Shown piece by piece: positions 1 through 19,214 of a stretch of 64,000 bases of DNA. Both the position numbers and the translations under genes were made by a program. The DNA comes from Bergeyella zoohelcum ATCC 43767 (GTDB lineage: Bacteria; Bacteroidota; Bacteroidia; Flavobacteriales; Weeksellaceae), in assembly GCF_000301075.1 (NCBI RefSeq), contig NZ_JH932293.1, forward strand, positions 1,101,755 to 1,165,754, read 5' to 3'. Each line of letters begins with the position of its first letter. Position 1 is the first letter of the stretch. Under the pieces are notes generated by a model. The model did no database searches. It saw nothing but the letters and a program-made list of their open reading frames with translations, and had not been told where the DNA came from.

Positions 1-298
1 TTCGGCGAAAGATAACACCAATATTGAGATATTAAAACAAGAACTTTCGGATTATGTACAAAGCCTGAAAACCGATGAAAATAATGTGGTAATTACCAAC
101 CAAAGACATTACGAAGCCCTACAAAAATCATTGGATGCTATACATCGTGTAGAAGAAGCCATTGCTCACCATATCCAGACGGAACTTTTGGCCTATGAAC
201 TTCGTTCAGCATTAGAACATCTCGGCGAAATTTCTGGAGAATTTACCAATGACGAAGTACTCGGAAATATCTTTGCAAATTTCTGTATCGGAAAATAA
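1..298 (+). CDS. mnmE: tRNA uridine-5-carboxymethylaminomethyl modification GTPase MnmE, 3' end only
   Basis: This is the C-terminal part of MnmE (TrmE/ThdF), which with MnmG modifies the wobble uridine of certain tRNAs. The frame is open from base 2, so the start lies outside the window. The visible residues contain the helical C-terminal domain and end in FCIGK. That terminus is nearly invariant in MnmE because the Cys belongs to the C-terminal CxGK motif needed for modification. The stop at 296-298 lies inside a 30-bp repeat that recurs at 7639-7668, so the gene end serves as an integration site and the reading frame is kept intact by the insertion. The family assignment is secure; nothing can be said about the G domain, which is outside the window. 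Confidence 0.93.
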
Positions 299-309
299 CT
301 GCTATTTTT
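280..309 (+). repeat. left attachment site (attL), inside the mnmE 3' end
   Basis: This is a 30-bp sequence starting TTTCTGTATCGG and running through the mnmE stop codon into the intergenic DNA. It is repeated without mismatch at 7639-7668. Weaker similarity continues for about 60 bp beyond both copies, including gtaat-ggtag and a gtttcca-taattaag stretch. Confidence 0.85.
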
Positions 310-580
310 GTAAGTAATTGGTAGTTAGTGTTTTGTGTTTGTAAATAAGTGGTTTCCAACTAATTAAGGTGGAAATTTTTATTACTTTTTGATACATTTT
401 GTTGTTTTTTGATACCAAATTAGGGTGCAATTTGGGATACGATGTTGGATTGAGGAGTAGTTTTGAGGACTTTTAGGGCTACGATGGCGAAATTACCAAT
501 GGCAAATACTGCTAAATAATGGTAAATACACGCAAATACTGGGAGAAATTATTAACATACTGAAAGACAAAAAGTGTAAA

Positions 581-1655: not shown

Positions 1656-2795
1656 ATGAAAGTTTATTTAAGAATAAGAAAAGGACAATTGAGCGAACTA
1701 AATAAGCAAAAAGGAAAAGCAAGAATGAATACATTTTACTTGAAATATTACGATGAAGAAACCAAAGAATGCACTTATGAATCCTTGAAACTACAAATAT
1801 ATGATAAGCCTAAAAACTTTGTAGAAAAGCAACATAATAAAGAGACCATTTTATTAGCAGAAGCAGTGAGAAGTGAAAAAATATTGGAAATACAAAGTGG
1901 TCGTTTTGGATTTGTAAGCAGTAGTAGTGGAAAGATAGGATTTTTAGCATACTTTGAAAAAATGGTAGAAAAGAAATATGATGTGAATGGAACTTATGGA
2001 AATTGGAAAAGTGCATTTAAACATTTAGTCAACTACTGCAAAGGAAAAGAAATCCAAATATCAAAAGTAGATGAAGTATTTTTAGAGGGGTTTAAGGACT
2101 ATCTTTTGAATGAAAAAATATCAGACAAAGGAGGAAAGTTAGGGCAAAATACAGTATTATCTTACTTTAATAAAATTAGAACAGCCTTAAAAGAAGCTCA
2201 TAGAGGCAGATTAATATCAGAAAATCCAGTATTGAGAGTAAGAGGAATAAAAGAGGAGGAAACCAATAGACAATATTTAACCTTGGAGGAAATCCAAAGT
2301 TTAGTACAGACTGAATGTGATAACCCATTGATAAAAAGAGCATTTTTATTTAGTTGTATGACAGGATTAAGATTTTCAGATATTGCAAATTTGAAGTGGA
2401 AGAACTTAAATTATGATGAAAATAATGGTTGGGTATTGAAATTCACAATGAAGAAAACCAAAGGAGTAGAGAACTTACCTATAAATGAACAAGCTATACA
2501 ACTAATGGGAAAGAGAGGAAAAGATGAAGAGCAAGTATTTGAAAATCTTGTGTATAGTGCATATGGCAATAAAAAACTACACAAATGGGTAAAGGAAGCA
2601 GGAATAGATAAGCATATTACATTTCACTCTGCAAGACATAGTTTTGCAACATTGCAACTGACAATGGATACTGATATTTATACAGTTAGTAAATTATTAG
2701 GACATAAAAACTTAAAGACCACAGAAATATATGCAAAAGTAATAGACAAGAAAAAAATTAATGCAGTATCAAAAATTCCTAATATTTTTGTATGA
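1656..2795 (+). CDS. int: tyrosine-type site-specific integrase
   Basis: This 379-residue tyrosine recombinase is presumed to integrate and excise the element at the mnmE 3' end. The N-terminal third looks like the arm-binding and SAM-like core-binding domains of Bacteroidota integrases. The catalytic set is visible: R239 (TGLRFSD), H324 and R327 (HSARHSFA), H350 (LLGHKNLKTT) and the nucleophile Y359 (TEIYAKV). Length and spacing are normal, so the protein is likely active. The gene ends 13 bp before the start chosen for the next gene, so the two are probably co-transcribed. It sits on the mnmE side of the element and reads away from mnmE. Confidence 0.93.
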   Translation: MKVYLRIRKGQLSELNKQKGKARMNTFYLKYYDEETKECTYESLKLQIYDKPKNFVEKQHNKETILLAEAVRSEKILEIQSGRFGFVSSSSGKIGFLAYFEKMVEKKYDVNGTYGNWKSAFKHLVNYCKGKEIQISKVDEVFLEGFKDYLLNEKISDKGGKLGQNTVLSYFNKIRTALKEAHRGRLISENPVLRVRGIKEEETNRQYLTLEEIQSLVQTECDNPLIKRAFLFSCMTGLRFSDIANLKWKNLNYDENNGWVLKFTMKKTKGVENLPINEQAIQLMGKRGKDEEQVFENLVYSAYGNKKLHKWVKEAGIDKHITFHSARHSFATLQLTMDTDIYTVSKLLGHKNLKTTEIYAKVIDKKKINAVSKIPNIFV

Positions 2796-4181: not shown

Positions 4182-4415
4182 ATGGAAGATAAAATGAATA
4201 TGTTAAATGTAAAAGAGGCTGCTCCTTATTTAAAATTAAGTGAGCAGTATATCAGAAGATTGTACAACAGAGGTAAATTGGTAGGATATAAACCAAATGG
4301 AGGAAAAATCTATTTTGCTCTTGAAGATTTAGAAAGTTTTTTGAGAAGAAATAGAAGTATGAGTGAAGAAGAGATTTTAAGTAAAAGTTTAACATTTAAA
4401 AAAATTGCAATATGA
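4182..4415 (+). CDS. helix-turn-helix (HTH_17, excisionase-type) protein
   Basis: This 77-residue protein starts with NVKEAAPYLKLSEQYIRRLYNRGKL, a winged HTH typical of excisionases and of the small DNA-binding proteins that precede replication genes in Bacteroidota elements, and then has a basic wing (GYKPNGGKIYFAL). Its stop overlaps the start of the following VirE_N gene by ATGA, so the two are translationally coupled. It probably regulates the replication gene or binds element DNA. The exact role is inferred. Confidence 0.75.
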   Translation: MEDKMNMLNVKEAAPYLKLSEQYIRRLYNRGKLVGYKPNGGKIYFALEDLESFLRRNRSMSEEEILSKSLTFKKIAI

Positions 4416-5269
4416 ATGTATTTAATTTAGACACTTGGGAAAACTATAAACATAGTGGAGTTATGTATTTATATGAGATATACGATAGTATAAAAGAGGG
4501 AGAATATAAGAATGAAATAGAAAAAATTAGATTGCTGTTAAAAAAAGAAATGAAACAAGAAGCTGATGAATTAAAAAGAAAATTACCTGCTTTTACTGTA
4601 TCAGGGATTTTTAATACAAACAGAAGAGAGGAATATCTTATAAAATATTATGGCTTGATGACTTTGGATATTGATAACTTAAAAGATGAGGAAGAAGTAA
4701 AAAGAATAAAAGAAAAAATATGTAAAATAAAATATACTAAAATGGCTTTTATCTCTCCATCAGGTTTGGGAATTAAAATCATTGTGGAAACCAATAATAC
4801 AAATGTGGAAAAGCATAAAGAAGTTTATAAAGAACTTTTAAATTATTACAAACAAGAACTGGATATAGAATTTGATGAGAAAACGATTGATGTTGCAAGA
4901 TTGTGTTTTATCTCTTATGATGAAGAGGCATATTTAAATTTGGATTCAGAGATTTTTATAAGTAAAAATACGAATATTGGCAAAGAAAAAGTAGATGATG
5001 AGTTTGATAGAATAATTGAGAAAATAATAGAATTTACAAAGAAACGACAAGAATTTAAAAATGGAAATAGAAATCGTTTTGTATATTTATTGGTAAAGAA
5101 TAGTAAAGGAGCTGGAATTACAAAGGAAAGAATATTAGAGTTTTGTTTAAATAACTGTATAGAGGAAGATTTTACAGAAGAGGAAATTCAAAATATTGTA
5201 AAGAGTGTATATAATGATGACAAAGTTTGTTTTGGACAATGGAAATATAAGTATAAGAAAAATTTATGA
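4412..5269 (+). CDS. VirE_N / BT4734-like domain protein, probable element replication protein
   Basis: This 285-residue protein has the N-terminal BT4734/VirE_N pattern of Bacteroidota mobile elements: KLPAFTVSGIF near residue 58, YGLMTLDIDNL near residue 84 and AFISPSGLGIKIIVET near residue 112. In related islands this domain is fused to, or sits beside, primase or helicase domains and is thought to act in element replication. Here it stands alone, with only an about 85-residue C-terminal helical region resembling a primase C-terminal domain. It lacks the usual large helicase partner, which suggests a minimal or host-dependent element. It is coupled to the upstream HTH gene by a 4-bp overlap. 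Confidence 0.75.
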   Translation: MNVFNLDTWENYKHSGVMYLYEIYDSIKEGEYKNEIEKIRLLLKKEMKQEADELKRKLPAFTVSGIFNTNRREEYLIKYYGLMTLDIDNLKDEEEVKRIKEKICKIKYTKMAFISPSGLGIKIIVETNNTNVEKHKEVYKELLNYYKQELDIEFDEKTIDVARLCFISYDEEAYLNLDSEIFISKNTNIGKEKVDDEFDRIIEKIIEFTKKRQEFKNGNRNRFVYLLVKNSKGAGITKERILEFCLNNCIEEDFTEEEIQNIVKSVYNDDKVCFGQWKYKYKKNL

Positions 5270-5568: not shown

Positions 5569-5925
5569 ATGAAAAGAAAAATCGCTTTTGGATTATCAGT
5601 ATTACTATTAAGTTTTACACTTATAAGCTGTAAGAATGATAGAATACAAGGTGTTTATCATTATGTGGAAAGTGAAAATAAAGATGATAACAATATTTTC
5701 AGAATGGGTATTAGATTGAGATGTGCATTAATAGGGGAAGTAGAATTTAAAAAAGGAAAATGCTATGTGAATATTGGAGGAATAGAAAAAAGGCTTGATT
5801 ATGAAATAGATGGCAATGAAATCTATGTGAAAAATGATGATGGAACAGAAGATGTCATTAAAATAGTAGATAATAACACTATTATTGTAGCAGGTTGTAC
5901 CTTTAAAAAAGATAAAAACAATTAA
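5569..5925 (+). CDS. small putative lipoprotein
   Basis: This 118-residue protein starts at MKRKIAFG. A hydrophobic signal region ends in a lipobox-like sequence (FTLISC, Cys near residue 21), so export and lipidation are likely. An upstream in-frame ATG at 5476 was rejected because it would precede the signal peptide and overlap the long palindrome. The mature part has IQGVYHYVE and repeated short beta-strand-like patterns with many Asn and Asp residues, resembling small lipocalin-like or copper-resistance-type lipoproteins, but no family is recognised. It is cargo of the integrative element, placed 15 bp before the next gene. Confidence 0.65.
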   Translation: MKRKIAFGLSVLLLSFTLISCKNDRIQGVYHYVESENKDDNNIFRMGIRLRCALIGEVEFKKGKCYVNIGGIEKRLDYEIDGNEIYVKNDDGTEDVIKIVDNNTIIVAGCTFKKDKNN

Positions 5926-5940
5926 ATAAATTATAGCATT

Positions 5941-6537
5941 ATGTGGAATACAAGAAACATTAATTTTGAGATTATTAAGAATGATAGCCAAAAAGTAGAA
6001 AAAGATAGATATATGGATATTTATCCTATATTTATAGATTTTTTTAAAGGTAGAGAATTAGATAAAGAAGCTATTATTTTAGGTATATCGTTAGTGTATA
6101 GTTGGATGCCAACCATACCAAAAATAAATTTAGAAAATATAGATGAAGTTGTAGAAATCATCAAAAAGGAGGAACTTACAGCAGATGATTTAGAGGAATT
6201 ATCAAAATGTTTTAATAATTCAGTGATTGGAACATCTAAACTATTACATTTTATTTATCCAAACAAATATCCTATTTGGGATAGTAATGTTTTTAAGTAT
6301 TTTTATGATGGTTTGGCATTTGAATATAAGGTAAACAAAGTAAGACATTATTTAAATTATTTTGATTTTTGTAATGATTTGATTGCTAATAATGAGGAAG
6401 AAATAACAAAAATACAAAAGGATTTTATTAATAAATTTGGAGTGGAAGTAAGTAAAATGAGAACTTTGGAGCTGATATTTTTCCAAGTAGGAAAGACCAA
6501 AAAAGAAGCTCCTATAACATCAAAAACTCATAGATAA
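5941..6537 (+). CDS. hypothetical protein with TSKLLHF-P-YPIWDS motif
   Basis: This 198-residue soluble protein contains, around residues 98-120, the block GTSKLLHFIYPNKYPIWDS. I have seen similar blocks in small unassigned proteins of bacterial accessory regions, where the pattern recalls a helix-hairpin-helix-type fold. No catalytic residue can be named. It starts 15 bp after the lipoprotein gene, and its stop overlaps the next start by one base (TAATG), indicating co-translation. It is part of the integrative element cargo; function unknown. Confidence 0.6.
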   Translation: MWNTRNINFEIIKNDSQKVEKDRYMDIYPIFIDFFKGRELDKEAIILGISLVYSWMPTIPKINLENIDEVVEIIKKEELTADDLEELSKCFNNSVIGTSKLLHFIYPNKYPIWDSNVFKYFYDGLAFEYKVNKVRHYLNYFDFCNDLIANNEEEITKIQKDFINKFGVEVSKMRTLELIFFQVGKTKKEAPITSKTHR

Positions 6538-6770
6538 TGGATTCAGAGGAAGAAGATAAGATAAGAGAGAAAATTTATAAATTGCACGAAAGGTTGATAA
6601 GTAAAGAGTGGGCAGAAGATAGAAAAAGAGCCTATGAATCGATAAAAGAGATGCAAAAACACTTGGAGTCTTTATCAGAAGAAGAAGCTCACAAACTAAT
6701 GGTAGAGCAGACTCAAAGGATATTGAAAGGTGGTCAATTAAGTAGAAGACGAAAATTTAAGAAAATATAG
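6537..6770 (+). CDS. small charged helical protein, paralogue of the 7231-7494 gene
   Basis: This 77-residue, strongly charged, probably all-helical protein overlaps the preceding stop by one base. Its second half (SLSEEEAHK ... SRRRKFKKI) matches the gene at 7231-7494 in both protein and DNA sequence, and both genes are followed by the same 76-bp repeat. The pair thus arose by a local duplication in the element. The basic C-terminus RRRKFKKI could bind nucleic acid. No family is recognised. Confidence 0.55.
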   Translation: MDSEEEDKIREKIYKLHERLISKEWAEDRKRAYESIKEMQKHLESLSEEEAHKLMVEQTQRILKGGQLSRRRKFKKI

Positions 6771-6777
6771 AGAAAAT

Positions 6778-6853
6778 AAAGCTGTTTTGAAATGATTTTC
6801 AAAGCAGTTTTTTATTTTTGCAAACCATACAAATCATATAATGCTTTTAGTAG
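6778..6853 (+). repeat. 76-bp direct repeat, copy 1, containing a terminator
   Basis: It is identical to 7503-7578. The left part is a rho-independent terminator: CTGTTTTGAAA pairs with TTTCAAAGCAG (one G-U) across a short loop, followed by TTTTTTATTTTT. The right part ends at an ATG (6841) that opens only a 22-codon frame here. Confidence 0.9.
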
Positions 6854-6950
6854 GGGAAGAAAATATTAATGGAGAATATGATGATGTTTTTTTTGTAAAG
6901 TATTAATTAATAGGACTTTTTTATTAAATTTACTGTAAATAAAAAATATT

Positions 6951-7205
6951 ATGAAAATTGAAGATAGATATAGAGAATTGAAAACAGCTGATAATTTAAT
7001 GAGTAATCATTTACATAATAAGTTATCTACTGTATTGAGAGATATAATATCATTAGTAAAAGATACTGAACATGAGAAAATTCTAAAAGATTTTTATAAA
7101 GAGACAGAAGATATTCCTTTTGCAAAAAAAGGAAGTGAAGAGTTTTTAGAGATTAGTAAATTATCTTATAAGGTTTTGCAATATATAGAAGAGAATTTAC
7201 TTTAA
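6951..7205 (+). CDS. hypothetical small helical protein
   Basis: This 84-residue protein is rich in Lys, Glu and Leu, with no signal peptide, membrane segment or family that I recognise. Predicted helices cover most of it (RYRELKTADNLMSNHLHNKL, then LRDIISLVKD). It lies between the two 76-bp repeats within the integrative element, in an A/T-rich context that matches its neighbours. The ATG at 6951 follows an AT-only stretch with no obvious ribosome-binding site. Confidence 0.45.
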   Translation: MKIEDRYRELKTADNLMSNHLHNKLSTVLRDIISLVKDTEHEKILKDFYKETEDIPFAKKGSEEFLEISKLSYKVLQYIEENLL

Positions 7206-7230
7206 TAAATTTACAAAGAAAACCAACTTT

Positions 7231-7494
7231 ATGAGGACAATGATTTTAGTAGGTACATTTACACAGAAAGAGATATTAGAGCACAAAATAAAGGTGATGG
7301 GGAAAGATTGGGTGCAAAACAGATTGGAAGCAAAAGAGCAGGTTCAAGATATGAAAAAGCGACAGAATTCTTTATCAGAAGAAGAAGCTCACAAAGAAGC
7401 AATGGAACAAGCAGAGAAAATCAAAAGATTGAGAGAAGAGAGAATGAGTAGAGGAGAGGATAGTTTTAGTAGAAGAAAATTTAAGAAAATTTAG
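7231..7494 (+). CDS. small charged helical protein, paralogue of the 6537-6770 gene
   Basis: This 87-residue protein has a short hydrophobic start (MRTMILVGTFTQKE), then a long charged helix, the shared NSLSEEEAHKEAMEQAEKI segment and the shared basic end SRRKFKKI. The N-terminal half differs from the copy at 6537, while the C-terminal half and the 3' flank are conserved. This points to duplication with replacement or rapid divergence of the front half. It is followed by the second 76-bp repeat and its terminator. No function can be assigned. Confidence 0.5.
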   Translation: MRTMILVGTFTQKEILEHKIKVMGKDWVQNRLEAKEQVQDMKKRQNSLSEEEAHKEAMEQAEKIKRLREERMSRGEDSFSRRKFKKI

Positions 7495-7502
7495 AGTAAA
7501 TA

Positions 7503-7578
7503 AAAGCTGTTTTGAAATGATTTTCAAAGCAGTTTTTTATTTTTGCAAACCATACAAATCATATAATGCTTTTAGTAG
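7503..7578 (+). repeat. 76-bp direct repeat, copy 2, containing a terminator
   Basis: It is identical to 6778-6853. Near-identity also extends about 30 bp upstream into the 3' ends of the two paralogous genes. The embedded hairpin followed by TTTTTTATTTTT should terminate the cargo operon. Confidence 0.9.
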
Positions 7579-7638
7579 TCAGATTACAAAATGGGCTACG
7601 ATTGATTTTAAAACATACTTAAATGGGAAGTATTACAT

Positions 7639-7668
7639 TTTCTGTATCGGAAAATAACTGCTATTTTT
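7639..7668 (+). repeat. right attachment site (attR)
   Basis: This is an exact copy of 280-309. It still reads as the last MnmE codons (TTC TGT ATC GGA AAA TAA) although no mnmE body precedes it. Chromosomal genes resume to its right. Confidence 0.85.
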
Positions 7669-7845
7669 TTGAGTAATGGGTAGCTGATTTTATTAAATGA
7701 TTAGTTTCCACTAAATTAAGTTGAGGTTGGTGTTAAACTATAAAAATTTGGTTTTTTGAGTCCAAAAGAAGTATATTTGAAAACGATTAATAATAACGGA
7801 AAGTTAGTTTTATAAGCTGAATCTAGATTTTTAATTATTATGATA

Positions 7846-8688: not shown

Positions 8689-8894
8689 AGAACTCGTCTT
8701 GACTTTTTATTTTGCTTAAATCCCTTGAGTTTTATACCACTTTAAATCTCTTTGTAGAAGTACTAAAAACTTTGACAAAATACCCAAAAGGGTGAAACTC
8801 ATTCAACTCAATATTCTTCTATAGATTTCTAAAAAGCTTAAACAAGTTCTATAATAATGTATAGTGAATAAATCTTGATAAAAAGAACGAAATC

Positions 8895-10298
8895 ATGATT
8901 TTAAATATTACCACTACCCACTCACCCGCTACGGATTTGGGGTATTTGCTTCATAAACATCCAGATAAGTTTCAGACTTTTGATTTGTCTATAGGAAGGG
9001 CTTTGGTGTTTTACCCTGAAGCAACAAATGAAAAAACAACCGTGAGCTTGTTGCTGGACATTGACCCTATTGATATGGTGAGAGGAGTGCGGAAAATGGG
9101 CGGAGATAATTTTGCCTTGGGACATTATGTAAATGATCGTCCTTATGTGGCCTCGTCTTTTATGAGTGTGGCAATTGCAAAGGCTTTCTCTTCAGCGATG
9201 AACGGAAAATGTAAAGATAAACCTGAATTGGTAGATAAGAAAATACCTATTGAGGTCAATATCAGCTCCATTCCTGCTCCTAAAGGAGGTGAACTTTTAA
9301 TCCGAAAATTGTTTGAACCTTTGGGGTACAAAGTAGTACTGACACGCCATACTTTAGACCAAAAATTTCCCGAATGGGGACAAAGTAAATATTTTTCGCT
9401 CCAATTAGAGCATACCATAACCGTGAAAGAACTGCTCTCTCATTTGTATGTATTAATACCTACTTTGGACAATGATAAACACTATTTCGTTAGTGAAAGC
9501 GAGATTGAAAAATTGCTCCAAAAAGGGGAAGGCTGGCTCAGGGAGCATCCAGAAAGAGAACAAATTATTCGGCGTTATCTTATTAATTTAGCTTCCCTAT
9601 CAAAACGAGCTTTAGAAAGAATCAGTGATGGAGAAACTGTAGACAATATAATAGATGAGTCTACAGAAAATAGCCAAATTCAAAAAAAGAAAGAAAGCCT
9701 GCATGATAAGCGCTTAAATTTGGTGGTAGAAAAACTTATAGAATCAGGAAGCGAACGCGTTTTAGACTTGGGTTGTGGTGAGGGGAAGCTCATTAAGCTG
9801 CTGCTCAAAGAAAGGCAATTTACAGAAATAGTAGGTATGGATGTATCTTACAGTGAATTGCTCAAAGCCAAAGAAAAATTGCATTTCGATGAAATGCCTC
9901 CTAAGCAGAAGGAAAAACTCCAGCTTTTTCAAGGTGCTCTGACCTATAGAGACCAGCGTCTCCATGGTTTTGATGCTGCTGCCGTAGTGGAAGTTATAGA
10001 GCATTTAGATTTAAACAGGTTGCAAGCTTTTGAACGCGTATTGTTTGGATTTGCTCAGCCAAAAACCATCGTGCTTACCACACCTAATAAAGAATATAAT
10101 GTAATGTGGGAACAATTGGAAGCCGAGAATATGAGGCATGATGACCATCGTTTTGAATGGACAAGAGAAGAATTCCAGCAGTGGGCAGATAAAATAGGAA
10201 AAATGTATAACTATAGTGTGGAGATTTTACCCATCGGATATGAAGAAGAAAATATCGGTGCTCCCTCACAAATGGCAATATTTAGATATGGAAATTAA
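8895..10298 (+). CDS. hen1: 3'-terminal RNA ribose 2'-O-methyltransferase Hen1
   Basis: Bacterial Hen1 methylates the 2'-OH at the 3' end of cleaved RNA and, with Pnkp, repairs tRNAs cut by ribotoxins so that the junction resists a second cut. At 467 residues the length is normal. Residues 1-240 match the N-terminal Hen1 domain that activates the Pnkp ligase. Residues from about 270 form the methyltransferase with the SAM-binding motif VLDLGCGEGK (289-298) and the metal-binding set E366, E369, H370 (EVIEHLD) and H415/H418 (RHDDHRF). The 3' end overlaps the pnkp start by 11 bp, so the two are translationally coupled. The family assignment is strong; its physiological trigger is unknown. Confidence 0.95.
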   Translation: MILNITTTHSPATDLGYLLHKHPDKFQTFDLSIGRALVFYPEATNEKTTVSLLLDIDPIDMVRGVRKMGGDNFALGHYVNDRPYVASSFMSVAIAKAFSSAMNGKCKDKPELVDKKIPIEVNISSIPAPKGGELLIRKLFEPLGYKVVLTRHTLDQKFPEWGQSKYFSLQLEHTITVKELLSHLYVLIPTLDNDKHYFVSESEIEKLLQKGEGWLREHPEREQIIRRYLINLASLSKRALERISDGETVDNIIDESTENSQIQKKKESLHDKRLNLVVEKLIESGSERVLDLGCGEGKLIKLLLKERQFTEIVGMDVSYSELLKAKEKLHFDEMPPKQKEKLQLFQGALTYRDQRLHGFDAAAVVEVIEHLDLNRLQAFERVLFGFAQPKTIVLTTPNKEYNVMWEQLEAENMRHDDHRFEWTREEFQQWADKIGKMYNYSVEILPIGYEEENIGAPSQMAIFRYGN

Positions 10299-12864
10299 AG
10301 TACCAGAGCTTTCATTAGTAGTGTTAATAGGTGTTTCTGGTTCGGGAAAAAGTAGTTTCGCGAAAAAACTGTTTAAACCTACAGAAATATTATCCTCTGA
10401 CCAATGTAGAGCATGGGTTTCAGATGATGAAAATAATCAGGCAGCTACCAATGACGCCTTTGATGTATTGCATTACATTGCAGATAAACGCCTTAAAAAT
10501 GGTTTACTGACCGTAATTGATGCAACGAATGTGCAAAAATCAGCACGAAAAGGATTGATAGAATTGGCAAAAAATCATCATTGTTTACCTGTAGCAATAG
10601 TGCTAGACTTGCCCGAAAAAGTTTGCGAAGAAAGAAATCAAAACAGAGTGGATAGAAATTTCGGAAATCATGTTATTCGTAGACAAGCTCAAGACTTGAA
10701 AAAATCCATTAAAGGGCTAAAACACGAAGGGTTTAGGCATATCTATGTTTTGAAATCGGCTGAGGAAGTGAATGCCGTAGAAGTCATCAAAAGAGAAAAA
10801 CTCTACAATGACAAAAAAGAAGAAAAAGGTCCATTTGATATTATTGGTGATGTTCACGGGTGTTTTCAGGAGTTGGAAGAATTGCTATTGAAACTGGGGT
10901 ATCAAATCAATAGAGTTGAAGAAAATACTAACAATTTTGGTTTTGAAGTCATTGCTCCCGAAAATAGAAAAGCCATTTTTCTTGGTGACCTAATTGATAG
11001 AGGTCCAGATTCGCCTTCGGTTTTGAAATTGGTCATGAGTATGGTAAACTCTGGTATAGCATATTGTGTACCAGGGAATCATGATTTGAAATTGCAGAAA
11101 TACCTCAGTGGGAAACAGGTACAGCTCAAACATGGGTTAGATCTTACCGTACAGCAATTAGAAAATGAAACTTCGGAATTTAAGAAAACCGTTGAGCAGT
11201 TTTTATATGGTCTCATCAGTCATTATGTTTTTGATGATGGGAATTTAGTAGTGGCTCATGCAGGATTAAAAGAAGAGATGCAAGGGCGTGGCTCAGAGGC
11301 GGTTCGTGCATTTTGTTTGTACGGTGAAACAACGGGGGAGATGGATGAGTTTGGTCTTCCTGTACGCCATAATTGGGCAGATGAGTACCGTGGAAAGGCG
11401 AAAGTGGTGTATGGACATACGCCCGTCCCAGAAGCTCAGTGGCTTAATAGAACCATTGATATTGATACCGGGTGTGTATTTGGAGGAAAACTAACCGCTC
11501 TTCGTTATCCTGAAGAGGAAATAGTATCCGTAAAGGCAAAACAAATTTACTGCGAACCTATAAGGCCACTACATTTTAATGAATCAGTTCAGCATCTCGA
11601 TGCTCAACAAGCGTACGACGATGTTTTGGATATAAAAGATGTTATAGGTAAAAGAATTGTACAAACCCGACTGAAAAACAATATTACCATTCGTGAGGAA
11701 AATTCCATTGCCGCTTTGGAGGTGATGAGCCGTTTTGCGATTAATCCTAAATGGTTAATTTATTTACCTCCTACCATGTCTCCATGCGAAACGAGTACTT
11801 TGCCCGAATTTTTGGAATATCCCGTCCAAGCTCTTAATTATTACAAAAAAAGAGGAGTGAAAACTGTGATTTGCGAAGAAAAACACATGGGGTCGCGGGT
11901 TGTTTTGGTTATTTGTAAAGATGAAGCGGCAGCATTTAAACGCTTTGGTGTGGAAAATGAAGGCATTGGCGTTTGCTATACACGGACGGGAAGAAACTTT
12001 TTTAATGATGCAGAAATAGAAAAAGTATTTTTATCTCGTGTAAATCAGTGTCTTACTAATACCCATTTTTGGGATAAATTTCATACCGATTGGGTTTGCC
12101 TTGATGCTGAGCTGATGCCTTGGTCAGCAAAAGCACAAGCTTTGATAAAAGAACAATATGCGTCTGTAGGAGCGGCAGCAAGTGGTGCTCTTCCAATGGT
12201 AGAGCAGGCTTTACAGATGGCTGTTGATAGAGGGATTAAGGATGCCTTGCCTTCGTTGGAAAAATTTTCACAGAAAAATAAAGCCATTGAAAAATATGTA
12301 CACGCTTACCAAAATTATTGCTGGCCAGTAACAAGTATTGATGATTATAAGCTCGCACCTTTTCATATTTTAGCTACAGAGGGGCAAGTGCATTTTGATA
12401 AAAATCATCAATGGCACATGAAAACCATCCAAGAAATAAGTAAAGGTGATGATCAGCTTTTTATGGCAACACCTCATAAAATAGTGGATTTAACAGATTC
12501 CAAGAGCTTTGAAGAGGCAGTACAATGGTGGCTAGATCTTACCCAAAATGGCGGTGAAGGAATGGTGGTAAAACCGTATGAATTTATTACTTACGGTACC
12601 GAAGGAGTATTGCAACCTGCAGTGAAATGCCGAGGGAAGGAATATCTCAGAATCATCTATGGTCCCGAGTACGATGCACCAGAAAATCTAGAACGCCTAA
12701 AAAATAGAAGCCTTTCCAGAAAACGCTCCTTAGCAATTAGAGAGTTTGCCCTTGGGCTAGAATCCCTCGAACGATTCGTGAAAAAAGAACCTCTAAGACG
12801 CATTCATGAAAGTGTCTTTGGGGTACTGGCCCTCGAAAGTGAAGATGTAGATCCAAGATTGTGA
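10288..12864 (+). CDS. pnkp: polynucleotide kinase-phosphatase-ligase Pnkp (bacterial RNA repair)
   Basis: This 858-residue trifunctional RNA-repair enzyme has three domains in order. The kinase P-loop is GVSGSGKSS (15-23). The metallophosphatase has GDVHG (187-191), GDLIDRG (233-239) and PGNHD (262-266). The adenylyltransferase/ligase has motif I EEKHMGSR with catalytic K532 and motif IV GGEGMVVKP (755-763). It heals 5'-OH and 2',3'-phosphate ends and, with Hen1, seals and methylates the break. The ATG at 10288 is chosen because it places the P-loop at the usual distance and overlaps the hen1 stop; the in-frame start at 10216 would add 24 residues lying within hen1. All key residues are present, so activity is expected. 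Confidence 0.95.
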   Translation: MEIKVPELSLVVLIGVSGSGKSSFAKKLFKPTEILSSDQCRAWVSDDENNQAATNDAFDVLHYIADKRLKNGLLTVIDATNVQKSARKGLIELAKNHHCLPVAIVLDLPEKVCEERNQNRVDRNFGNHVIRRQAQDLKKSIKGLKHEGFRHIYVLKSAEEVNAVEVIKREKLYNDKKEEKGPFDIIGDVHGCFQELEELLLKLGYQINRVEENTNNFGFEVIAPENRKAIFLGDLIDRGPDSPSVLKLVMSMVNSGIAYCVPGNHDLKLQKYLSGKQVQLKHGLDLTVQQLENETSEFKKTVEQFLYGLISHYVFDDGNLVVAHAGLKEEMQGRGSEAVRAFCLYGETTGEMDEFGLPVRHNWADEYRGKAKVVYGHTPVPEAQWLNRTIDIDTGCVFGGKLTALRYPEEEIVSVKAKQIYCEPIRPLHFNESVQHLDAQQAYDDVLDIKDVIGKRIVQTRLKNNITIREENSIAALEVMSRFAINPKWLIYLPPTMSPCETSTLPEFLEYPVQALNYYKKRGVKTVICEEKHMGSRVVLVICKDEAAAFKRFGVENEGIGVCYTRTGRNFFNDAEIEKVFLSRVNQCLTNTHFWDKFHTDWVCLDAELMPWSAKAQALIKEQYASVGAAASGALPMVEQALQMAVDRGIKDALPSLEKFSQKNKAIEKYVHAYQNYCWPVTSIDDYKLAPFHILATEGQVHFDKNHQWHMKTIQEISKGDDQLFMATPHKIVDLTDSKSFEEAVQWWLDLTQNGGEGMVVKPYEFITYGTEGVLQPAVKCRGKEYLRIIYGPEYDAPENLERLKNRSLSRKRSLAIREFALGLESLERFVKKEPLRRIHESVFGVLALESEDVDPRL

Positions 12865-18893: not shown

Positions 18894-19068
18894 TGATTCC
18901 CCTCCTTTTAAAGCGAGGGGAATTATATTGGGCAAAATTGGTATTGACTTTTTACCTTGCTTAGATTTCTTGAGTCTTAATAAAATATCAAAGCACTAAA
19001 AACATATTTGCTATGAAAATATTATAAGTAGGAAGCTATACGCCAATAGTCATTGTACTTTGTACTAA

Positions 19069-19091
19069 TTTCTAATCTCTAACTTCTAATT
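19069..19091 (+). repeat. 23-bp interspersed repeat, copy 1
   Basis: The sequence begins TTTCTAATCTCTAACTTC and is identical to 19168-19190. A degenerate third group lies at 36191-36232 between porV and porU. Confidence 0.75.
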
Positions 19092-19167
19092 TCTAACATC
19101 ATAATACTTTGCTATAGGCAGTAAGCAGTAGGCAATAAGCTTTTAGCGGTTGGGAATGGCTTTAAAC

Positions 19168-19190
19168 TTTCTAATCTCTAACTTCTAATT
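19168..19190 (+). repeat. 23-bp interspersed repeat, copy 2
   Basis: It is identical to 19069-19091, with 99 bp between start points. It lies just ahead of the aroC promoter box. Confidence 0.75.
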
Positions 19191-19214
19191 CCTAAATATT
19201 TCGTTTATCTTTAC

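Follow-up and report, generated by a model that had tools for sequence, protein, structure and literature searches.

A duplicated terminator segment at a probable joint between two cargo modules in an mnmE-integrated island of Bergeyella zoohelcum

Two small genes, here called A and B, lie near the right end of a genomic island in a 64,000-nucleotide stretch of the Bergeyella zoohelcum ATCC 43767 genome (the window), and each is followed by the same 76-base segment. We think it probable, with some reserve, that this arrangement is the joint between two cargo modules and that it arose by addition or copying at the boundary of an island integrated at mnmE. Module 1 would end with gene A and its terminator segment; module 2 would comprise a degraded leader, a gene that we call M84, gene B, and the same terminator segment, after which the right arm of the island begins. 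Behind this reading stand the homology between A and B, their identical flanks, the anatomy and right arm of the island, the leaders seen in six further islands, and a duplication that one of those six shows in parallel; the comparison draws on collections with one genome per species, in which the genus is represented by this genome alone. The features concerned are as follows.

86 to 298, plus strand: open reading frame with the mnmE 3′ end (C-terminal end of the NCBIfam MnmE models, E 8e-16 and 4e-12)
280 to 324, plus strand: attL core, a 45-base repeat 93% identical to 7639-7683 and overlapping the mnmE 3′ end
1656 to 2795, plus strand: tyrosine recombinase (integrase; Pfam Phage_integrase E 4e-26, Phage_int_SAM_5 E 1e-21)
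4182 to 5269, plus strand: HTH_17 gene and BT4734-like/PriCT primase-like backbone gene (Pfam HTH_17 E 2e-12, BT4734-like_N E 6e-33, and PriCT_1 E 8e-4, the last below cut-off)
5941 to 6537, plus strand: gene 5941, 198 aa, the last gene in common with the Riemerella anatipestifer island (76% identity)
6537 to 6770, plus strand: gene A, 77 aa, a diverged member of the A/B family
6778 to 6853, plus strand: 76-base segment, copy 1, with terminator hairpin (6778-6811), T-run, and spacer (from exact repeat, fold, and terminator scan)
6903 to 6949, possibly from 6856, plus strand: putative degraded left-boundary leader (terminator remnant) preceding M84, from local alignment to leaders
6951 to 7205, plus strand: M84, 84 aa, the first cargo gene in four related islands
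7231 to 7494, plus strand: gene B, 87 aa, the family member nearest to the R. anatipestifer gene
7503 to 7578, plus strand: 76-base segment, copy 2, on the same basis as copy 1
7579 to 7638, plus strand: conserved right arm, from an alignment of eight right ends
7639 to 7683, plus strand: attR core, the repeat of 280-324

Judged by its sequence, the window holds a tyrosine-recombinase island integrated at mnmE, having the att repeat on both sides and the recombinase inside, as in mnmE/trmE-integrated islands. Between attL and attR lie the integrase, a 443-aa gene, the HTH_17 gene (probably excisionase-like), the primase-like gene, a lipoprotein-like gene, and gene 5941. The MnmE C-terminus encoded by the window frame is 74-83% identical in five other loci, and the integrase has matches at E<=1e-140 in 10 of 316 family genomes drawn, its own included (the R. 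anatipestifer genome fell outside that draw). The cargo of the window consists of small genes only, lacking a convincing PADLOC match, and runs from A and its terminator through the putative degraded leader and M84 to B, its terminator, and the right arm. The end of copy 2 comes within a few bases of the arm that eight right ends have in common; the 76-base segment looks like the 3′ boundary of a module. At 6535-6539 the stop of gene 5941 overlaps the start of A (TAATG), which suggests translational coupling. Beyond the island, about 1.2 kb from its right end, are genes for bacterial RNA repair, Hen1 and Pnkp (8895-12864; Pfam Hen1_L E 9e-109, PNKP_ligase E 5e-179), and two pairs of dispersed short repeats were also seen outside it (8691-8734 / 18936-18979, 80% over 44 bases; 19069-19096 / 19168-19195, 96% over 28 bases).

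The two copies of the segment agree at exactly 76 of 76 bases, as the initial annotation had it, and make up the longest exact direct repeat in the 64-kb window, where we found no exact inverted repeats of at least 25 bases. Genome-wide, only these two copies match the segment strongly; the third-best match has E 0.016. Each copy opens with a hairpin of 15-16 pairs and a T-run, and the intrinsic terminator proposed for this position is supported by folding relative to shuffles (z -3.1 and -3.3 for the flanks, -4.6 for the core) and by a terminator scan of 5900-7800, which returned two sites, both of them the 76-base copies, compared to a shuffle mean of 0.2. Upstream of the segment, near-identity continues for 37-40 bases, with two substitutions, one 3-base indel, and one 1-base indel, and it extends about 40 bases into the 3′ coding end of A. 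A 33-base piece of the flank had no match in viral contigs.

Relatives of A and B are few. Searching 320 family genomes with B gave six matches at E<=0.01, three of which we took as real: the genome itself, R. anatipestifer CCUG25054 (G308, NZ_QXHU01000001.1), likewise a member of the Weeksellaceae, and a Flavobacteriaceae MAG (G247, JAITMJ010000149.1). The A1 profile gave eight matches in the same 320 genomes, of which the same three were convincing; weak matches were set aside both for B (G141, G251, G297, and a second place in G247; E 0.002-0.007) and for the profile (G075, G083, G205, G210, G311; E 8e-4 to 0.0099). Among 395 genomes drawn from the order, the profile found its own genome only. 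B alone found nothing in the genome contig collection, where the A1 profile found two matches; no matches were seen in viral contigs for B, the profile, or gene 5941, in plasmids for A and B, or in phages for B.

Both genes are open reading frames at the places first given for them, and BLASTP aligns residues 19-77 of A to 21-87 of B (29 of 67 columns identical, 43%; E 2e-13), leaving only the first 18-20 residues of each outside. The common C-terminal part noticed at the outset is evident in the block SLSEEEAHK and the tail RRKFKKI. The N-terminal halves had been taken to differ as if unrelated; they are instead homologous, with 7 of 26 aligned residues identical upstream of SLSEEE and a score reached by 0 of 5000 shuffles. 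The corresponding score of A against the R. anatipestifer relative was likewise reached by 0 of 5000, and those against the more distant G247 protein by 14 (B) and 13 (A) of 5000. An alignment of A, B, the R. anatipestifer protein, and the MAG protein covers most of the length of each, with 12 invariant columns, four before SLSEEE (start Met included) and eight from SLSEEE onward. The end-to-end alignment that the initial annotation named as contrary to its view is thus in essence what the homologues show, and front domains were not exchanged. On these comparisons A and B belong to a single family of small genes and diverged long ago; they are not products of a front-domain swap.

The genes and their flank differ in apparent age. 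Between the coding sequences of A and B, dN is 0.36 and dS 1.39 (NG86; dS 1.59 when the last eight codons are left out), such that synonymous sites are saturated; differing sites number 26 of 59 at third-codon positions and 0 of 76 in the flank (Fisher P 9e-12). Constraint does not simply explain the latter, because copy 2 matches the flank of the B relative in R. anatipestifer at only 51 of 73 aligned bases (with 5 gap columns); the right arm matches at 46 of 59. It follows that the identical end arose after the genes had diverged, and the proposal of a recent duplication stands for the flank but fails for the genes. B is 78% identical to the R. anatipestifer gene over 65 codons (dS 0.28), and A is 40% identical to the protein over 55. 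Differences between B and that gene fall 7, 7, and 10 by codon position, too few alone to fix the reading frame; the alternative frame at B, open for 104 aa in R. anatipestifer, was rejected, given that A, B, and the G247 protein match in the frame used here. At third positions, 10 of 65 differ in B, compared to 464 of 1106 in five backbone genes (P 1e-5 versus B) and 51 of 188 in gene 5941 (P 0.06). On these few sites, B may have been exchanged more recently than the island backbone.

An A/B-family gene lies near mnmE in all three genomes—beside attR in the window and in R. anatipestifer, and 640 bases past the mnmE stop in G247. In R. anatipestifer the backbone recurs at mnmE, its proteins 49-81% identical to those of the window, and is followed by a 1256-aa Tmn gene (PADLOC E 4e-75) and then B; the integrase gene of this island looks broken, with a short open frame and about 160 bases of the window copy missing. 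Near the left end of the island (L024), about 35-490 bases past the mnmE stop, a ~63-base unit is repeated in tandem (91-94% identity when the stretch is compared with itself). Relatives of gene 5941 also occur in G189, G237, and G316.

We compared thirteen stretches in all: the window, G308, G247, G182, G027, G123, G002, G190, G129, G112, G227, G219, and G119, the last having a broken M84 only. The first six include mnmE; the others end short of it, and insertion there is deduced from a related integrase and, where found, the att core, which was sought in G129 and not found. The cargo of these islands often appears to consist of defence genes: a type I methyltransferase and specificity gene with a PtuA-like ATPase in G182, ABC-3C/LmuB-like (Lamassu-like) genes in G027 with counterparts 92% alike in DNA in G123, KAP/PifA-like genes in G002 and G123, and PDC-M37A/B in G190. 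The scan left out G129, G112, and the ABC-3C/LmuB-like genes of G123, and three proteins scanned from the second G227/G219 module had no PADLOC match at E<=1e-5. A cargo-only island also lies at mnmE in G182 (L020:8657-15142); flanked by att-like cores, it carries M84 and a module of restriction type, and nothing in it matches the window integrase.

M84 stands ahead of the cargo in G002, G027, G123, and G182, where it is 60-62% identical to the window copy, and it has matches in 7 of 316 family genomes at E<=0.001, its own included (a weak match in G310, E 6e-4, was set aside). It belongs to no convincing Pfam family, one of five members matching ANTH at E 0.0097; its profile had no match among solved structures at E<=0.05, and none was found in viral contigs. 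On a Chryseobacterium shandongense plasmid (L009), a broken M84 relative follows two Abi-family genes.

Constant segments bracket this variable cargo. On the right, eight right ends have the arm in common; with the window and R. anatipestifer excepted, the remaining six place the stop of their last cargo gene 48-68 bases ahead of the att core. On the left, a terminator leader is present in 6 of 11 relatives (G027, G123, G002, G219, G227, and, as a partial match, G190), beginning 10-24 bases past the stop of the gene that we take as the last before the cargo; shorter matches occur in G182 (91 bases), G129 (53), and G112 (33). Searches of R. anatipestifer, G247, and G119 gave nothing better than E 0.028, and the lack of a leader in R. 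anatipestifer and G247 (best E 0.028 and 0.097) counts against a reading in terms of modules. The cassette-like exchange suggested initially for front domains is thus better applied to whole cargo modules, which differ among islands between constant boundary segments.

The islands of G227 and G219 offer a parallel, namely a terminator segment at the cargo boundary that is duplicated where an extra module is present. The two align for the most part, G227 having an additional ~4.6 kb between two leader copies that are 92% identical over 116 columns; within this addition lie a UPF0489 gene and a Tmn gene that is split between two frames. The two islands are not otherwise identical, as about 0.9 kb ahead of the leader differs as well, a point against the module reading.

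In the window itself, local alignment finds that 6903-6931 resembles the leader of related islands. Against eight leader copies from seven islands, the score was reached by 0, 0, 0, 1, 1, 1, 16, and 18 of 1000 shuffles, and the alignments start just past copy 1 (6856-6857) in three cases and at 6897-6909 in five. BLAST gives E 0.008, a value equalled by an unrelated place at 1191-1227. A leader remnant is thus supported but weak, and the equal unrelated match, the two higher shuffle counts, and the minority of alignments reaching copy 1 all tell against the module reading. If the stretch is a leader, copy 1 of the segment abuts a left boundary just as copy 2 abuts the right arm.

We therefore favour, at the strength given above, a joint between modules. 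After A and B had diverged, the last codons and terminator segment of one copy would have been copied onto the other, or carried along with it, by recombination as one module was added beside the other at the right boundary. We infer both this order of events and recombination at the shared boundary, no crossover point having been observed, and the terminators would keep the transcription units apart. Identity running into the coding end of A counts against this scheme, as gene conversion would explain it equally well.

Gene conversion is central to the next alternative, which we consider possible though rather doubtful: an old tandem duplication of gene and terminator, followed by divergence, later conversion of the 3′ tail and terminator, and insertion of M84 in between. 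An identical end on a diverged gene, with the identity tapering off across about 40 bases, is what conversion would naturally leave. Moreover, the flank end ATGCTTTTAGTAGG (6841-6854, 7566-7579) recurs at the start of B as ATGATTTTAGTAGG (7240-7253), as if B had once directly followed the flank; this recurrence was reached in 9 of 2000 shuffles, and with at most one mismatch the match occurs at four places in the window compared to a shuffle mean of 0.10, one of the four being unrelated (118-131). The start of the R. anatipestifer gene differs from the start of B that repeats the flank end. On the other hand, B is far closer to the R. anatipestifer gene than to A, such that the duplication would have to predate the split, and A is missing there; nor would this history predict the (weak) leader-like stretch past copy 1.

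Less probable again is that two islands once sat in tandem at mnmE, a site common to several islands, and that a deletion ran from the cargo of the first to the leader of the second. One step would then yield the observed order, but a random deletion is not expected to stop at a boundary, and neither att nor right-arm remnants lie between the copies: the candidate at 6854-6953 was rejected, its score against right arm plus att being reached by 101 of 1000 shuffles and that against attL by 216. This history and the favoured module joint both lean on the leader remnant, and the weakness of that remnant lowers our confidence in each. The account given initially, in which variable fronts are swapped onto a constant back as in arrays of toxin-immunity or anti-defence genes, has in its favour that the DNA of the 5′ parts is far less alike than that of the tail and flank, but with fronts homologous to each other and to those of relatives, and no toxin, immunity, or anti-defence family beyond weak matches, it is very improbable.

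The family matches in question are an affiliation of A with PADLOC Cas13d (E 0.0026) and PD-T4-6 (0.0039), of B with the PHROG Rz-like spanin (0.02), and of the G247 protein with NCBIfam HelR (0.0037, far below cut-off), which we read as chance matches of charged helices. Beyond these, neither A, B, nor M84 showed a toxin or immunity family, and with their homologous fronts A and B thus lack the marks of a polymorphic toxin-immunity array. As for integron cassette arrays, which have an IntI integrase and an attC site behind every gene, the island integrase matches the general Phage_integrase and Phage_int_SAM_5 models and the repeat contains a terminator hairpin. An AlphaFold2 model of B has three helices (mean pLDDT 69, pTM 0.33, low confidence); fold searches of PDB and BFVD gave nothing better than E 5, so we claim no fold for it; the A/B profile likewise had no match to solved structures at E<=0.05. 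The toxin-immunity or anti-defence character first ascribed to the pair finds no backing in these results. A and B are small and basic (pI 9.2 and 9.8) and, by loose reasoning, are perhaps nucleic-acid-binding accessory proteins of the cargo.

P4-like satellites combine a fixed site with variable defence cargo. The same combination is reported for hotspots in E. coli and Pseudomonas (PMC10121019, PMC10250203), and it recurs among the mnmE islands compared here; a possible difference is that in the window island the boundary terminator segment itself is duplicated where modules would stack. Salmonella Genomic Island 1 and its relatives are described as islands with variable cargo in the 3′ end of trmE/mnmE (PMC8409611, PMC7449626), and thus resemble the window island in insertion gene end and in cargo variability. 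They belong to Gammaproteobacteria and the accounts stress antibiotic resistance, whereas relatives of the window island carry defence-type genes; the likeness is one of site and cargo. Closer in taxonomy is the R. anatipestifer 10K genomic island (PMC6764341), which is small, integrase-bearing, flanked by direct repeats, and from the same bacterial family, but is described at an Arg-tRNA gene with a 53-base repeat rather than at mnmE; a further report concerns tRNA-site islands (PMC9745183). In literature searches on trmE/mnmE islands in Bacteroidota or with defence cargo, and on defence cargo exchanged at conserved flanks or terminators, no title or abstract opening among the papers listed describes these islands.

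More tentatively, the Weeksellaceae mnmE islands might form a cassette system that lacks a cassette recombinase. Interchangeable defence modules would be bracketed on the left by a constant terminator leader, in many cases with M84 behind it, and on the right by an equally constant arm; they would stack by boundary recombination and leave duplicated terminators behind. In this scheme M84 would be a general module companion and A/B a further cargo family. The arrangement in the window is a modest example of how mobile islands are assembled. If modules do stack at terminator boundaries, duplicated terminators would mark sites where defence cargo was added, and A, B, and M84, all of them small genes, would be assigned to the defence slot of a mobile element.
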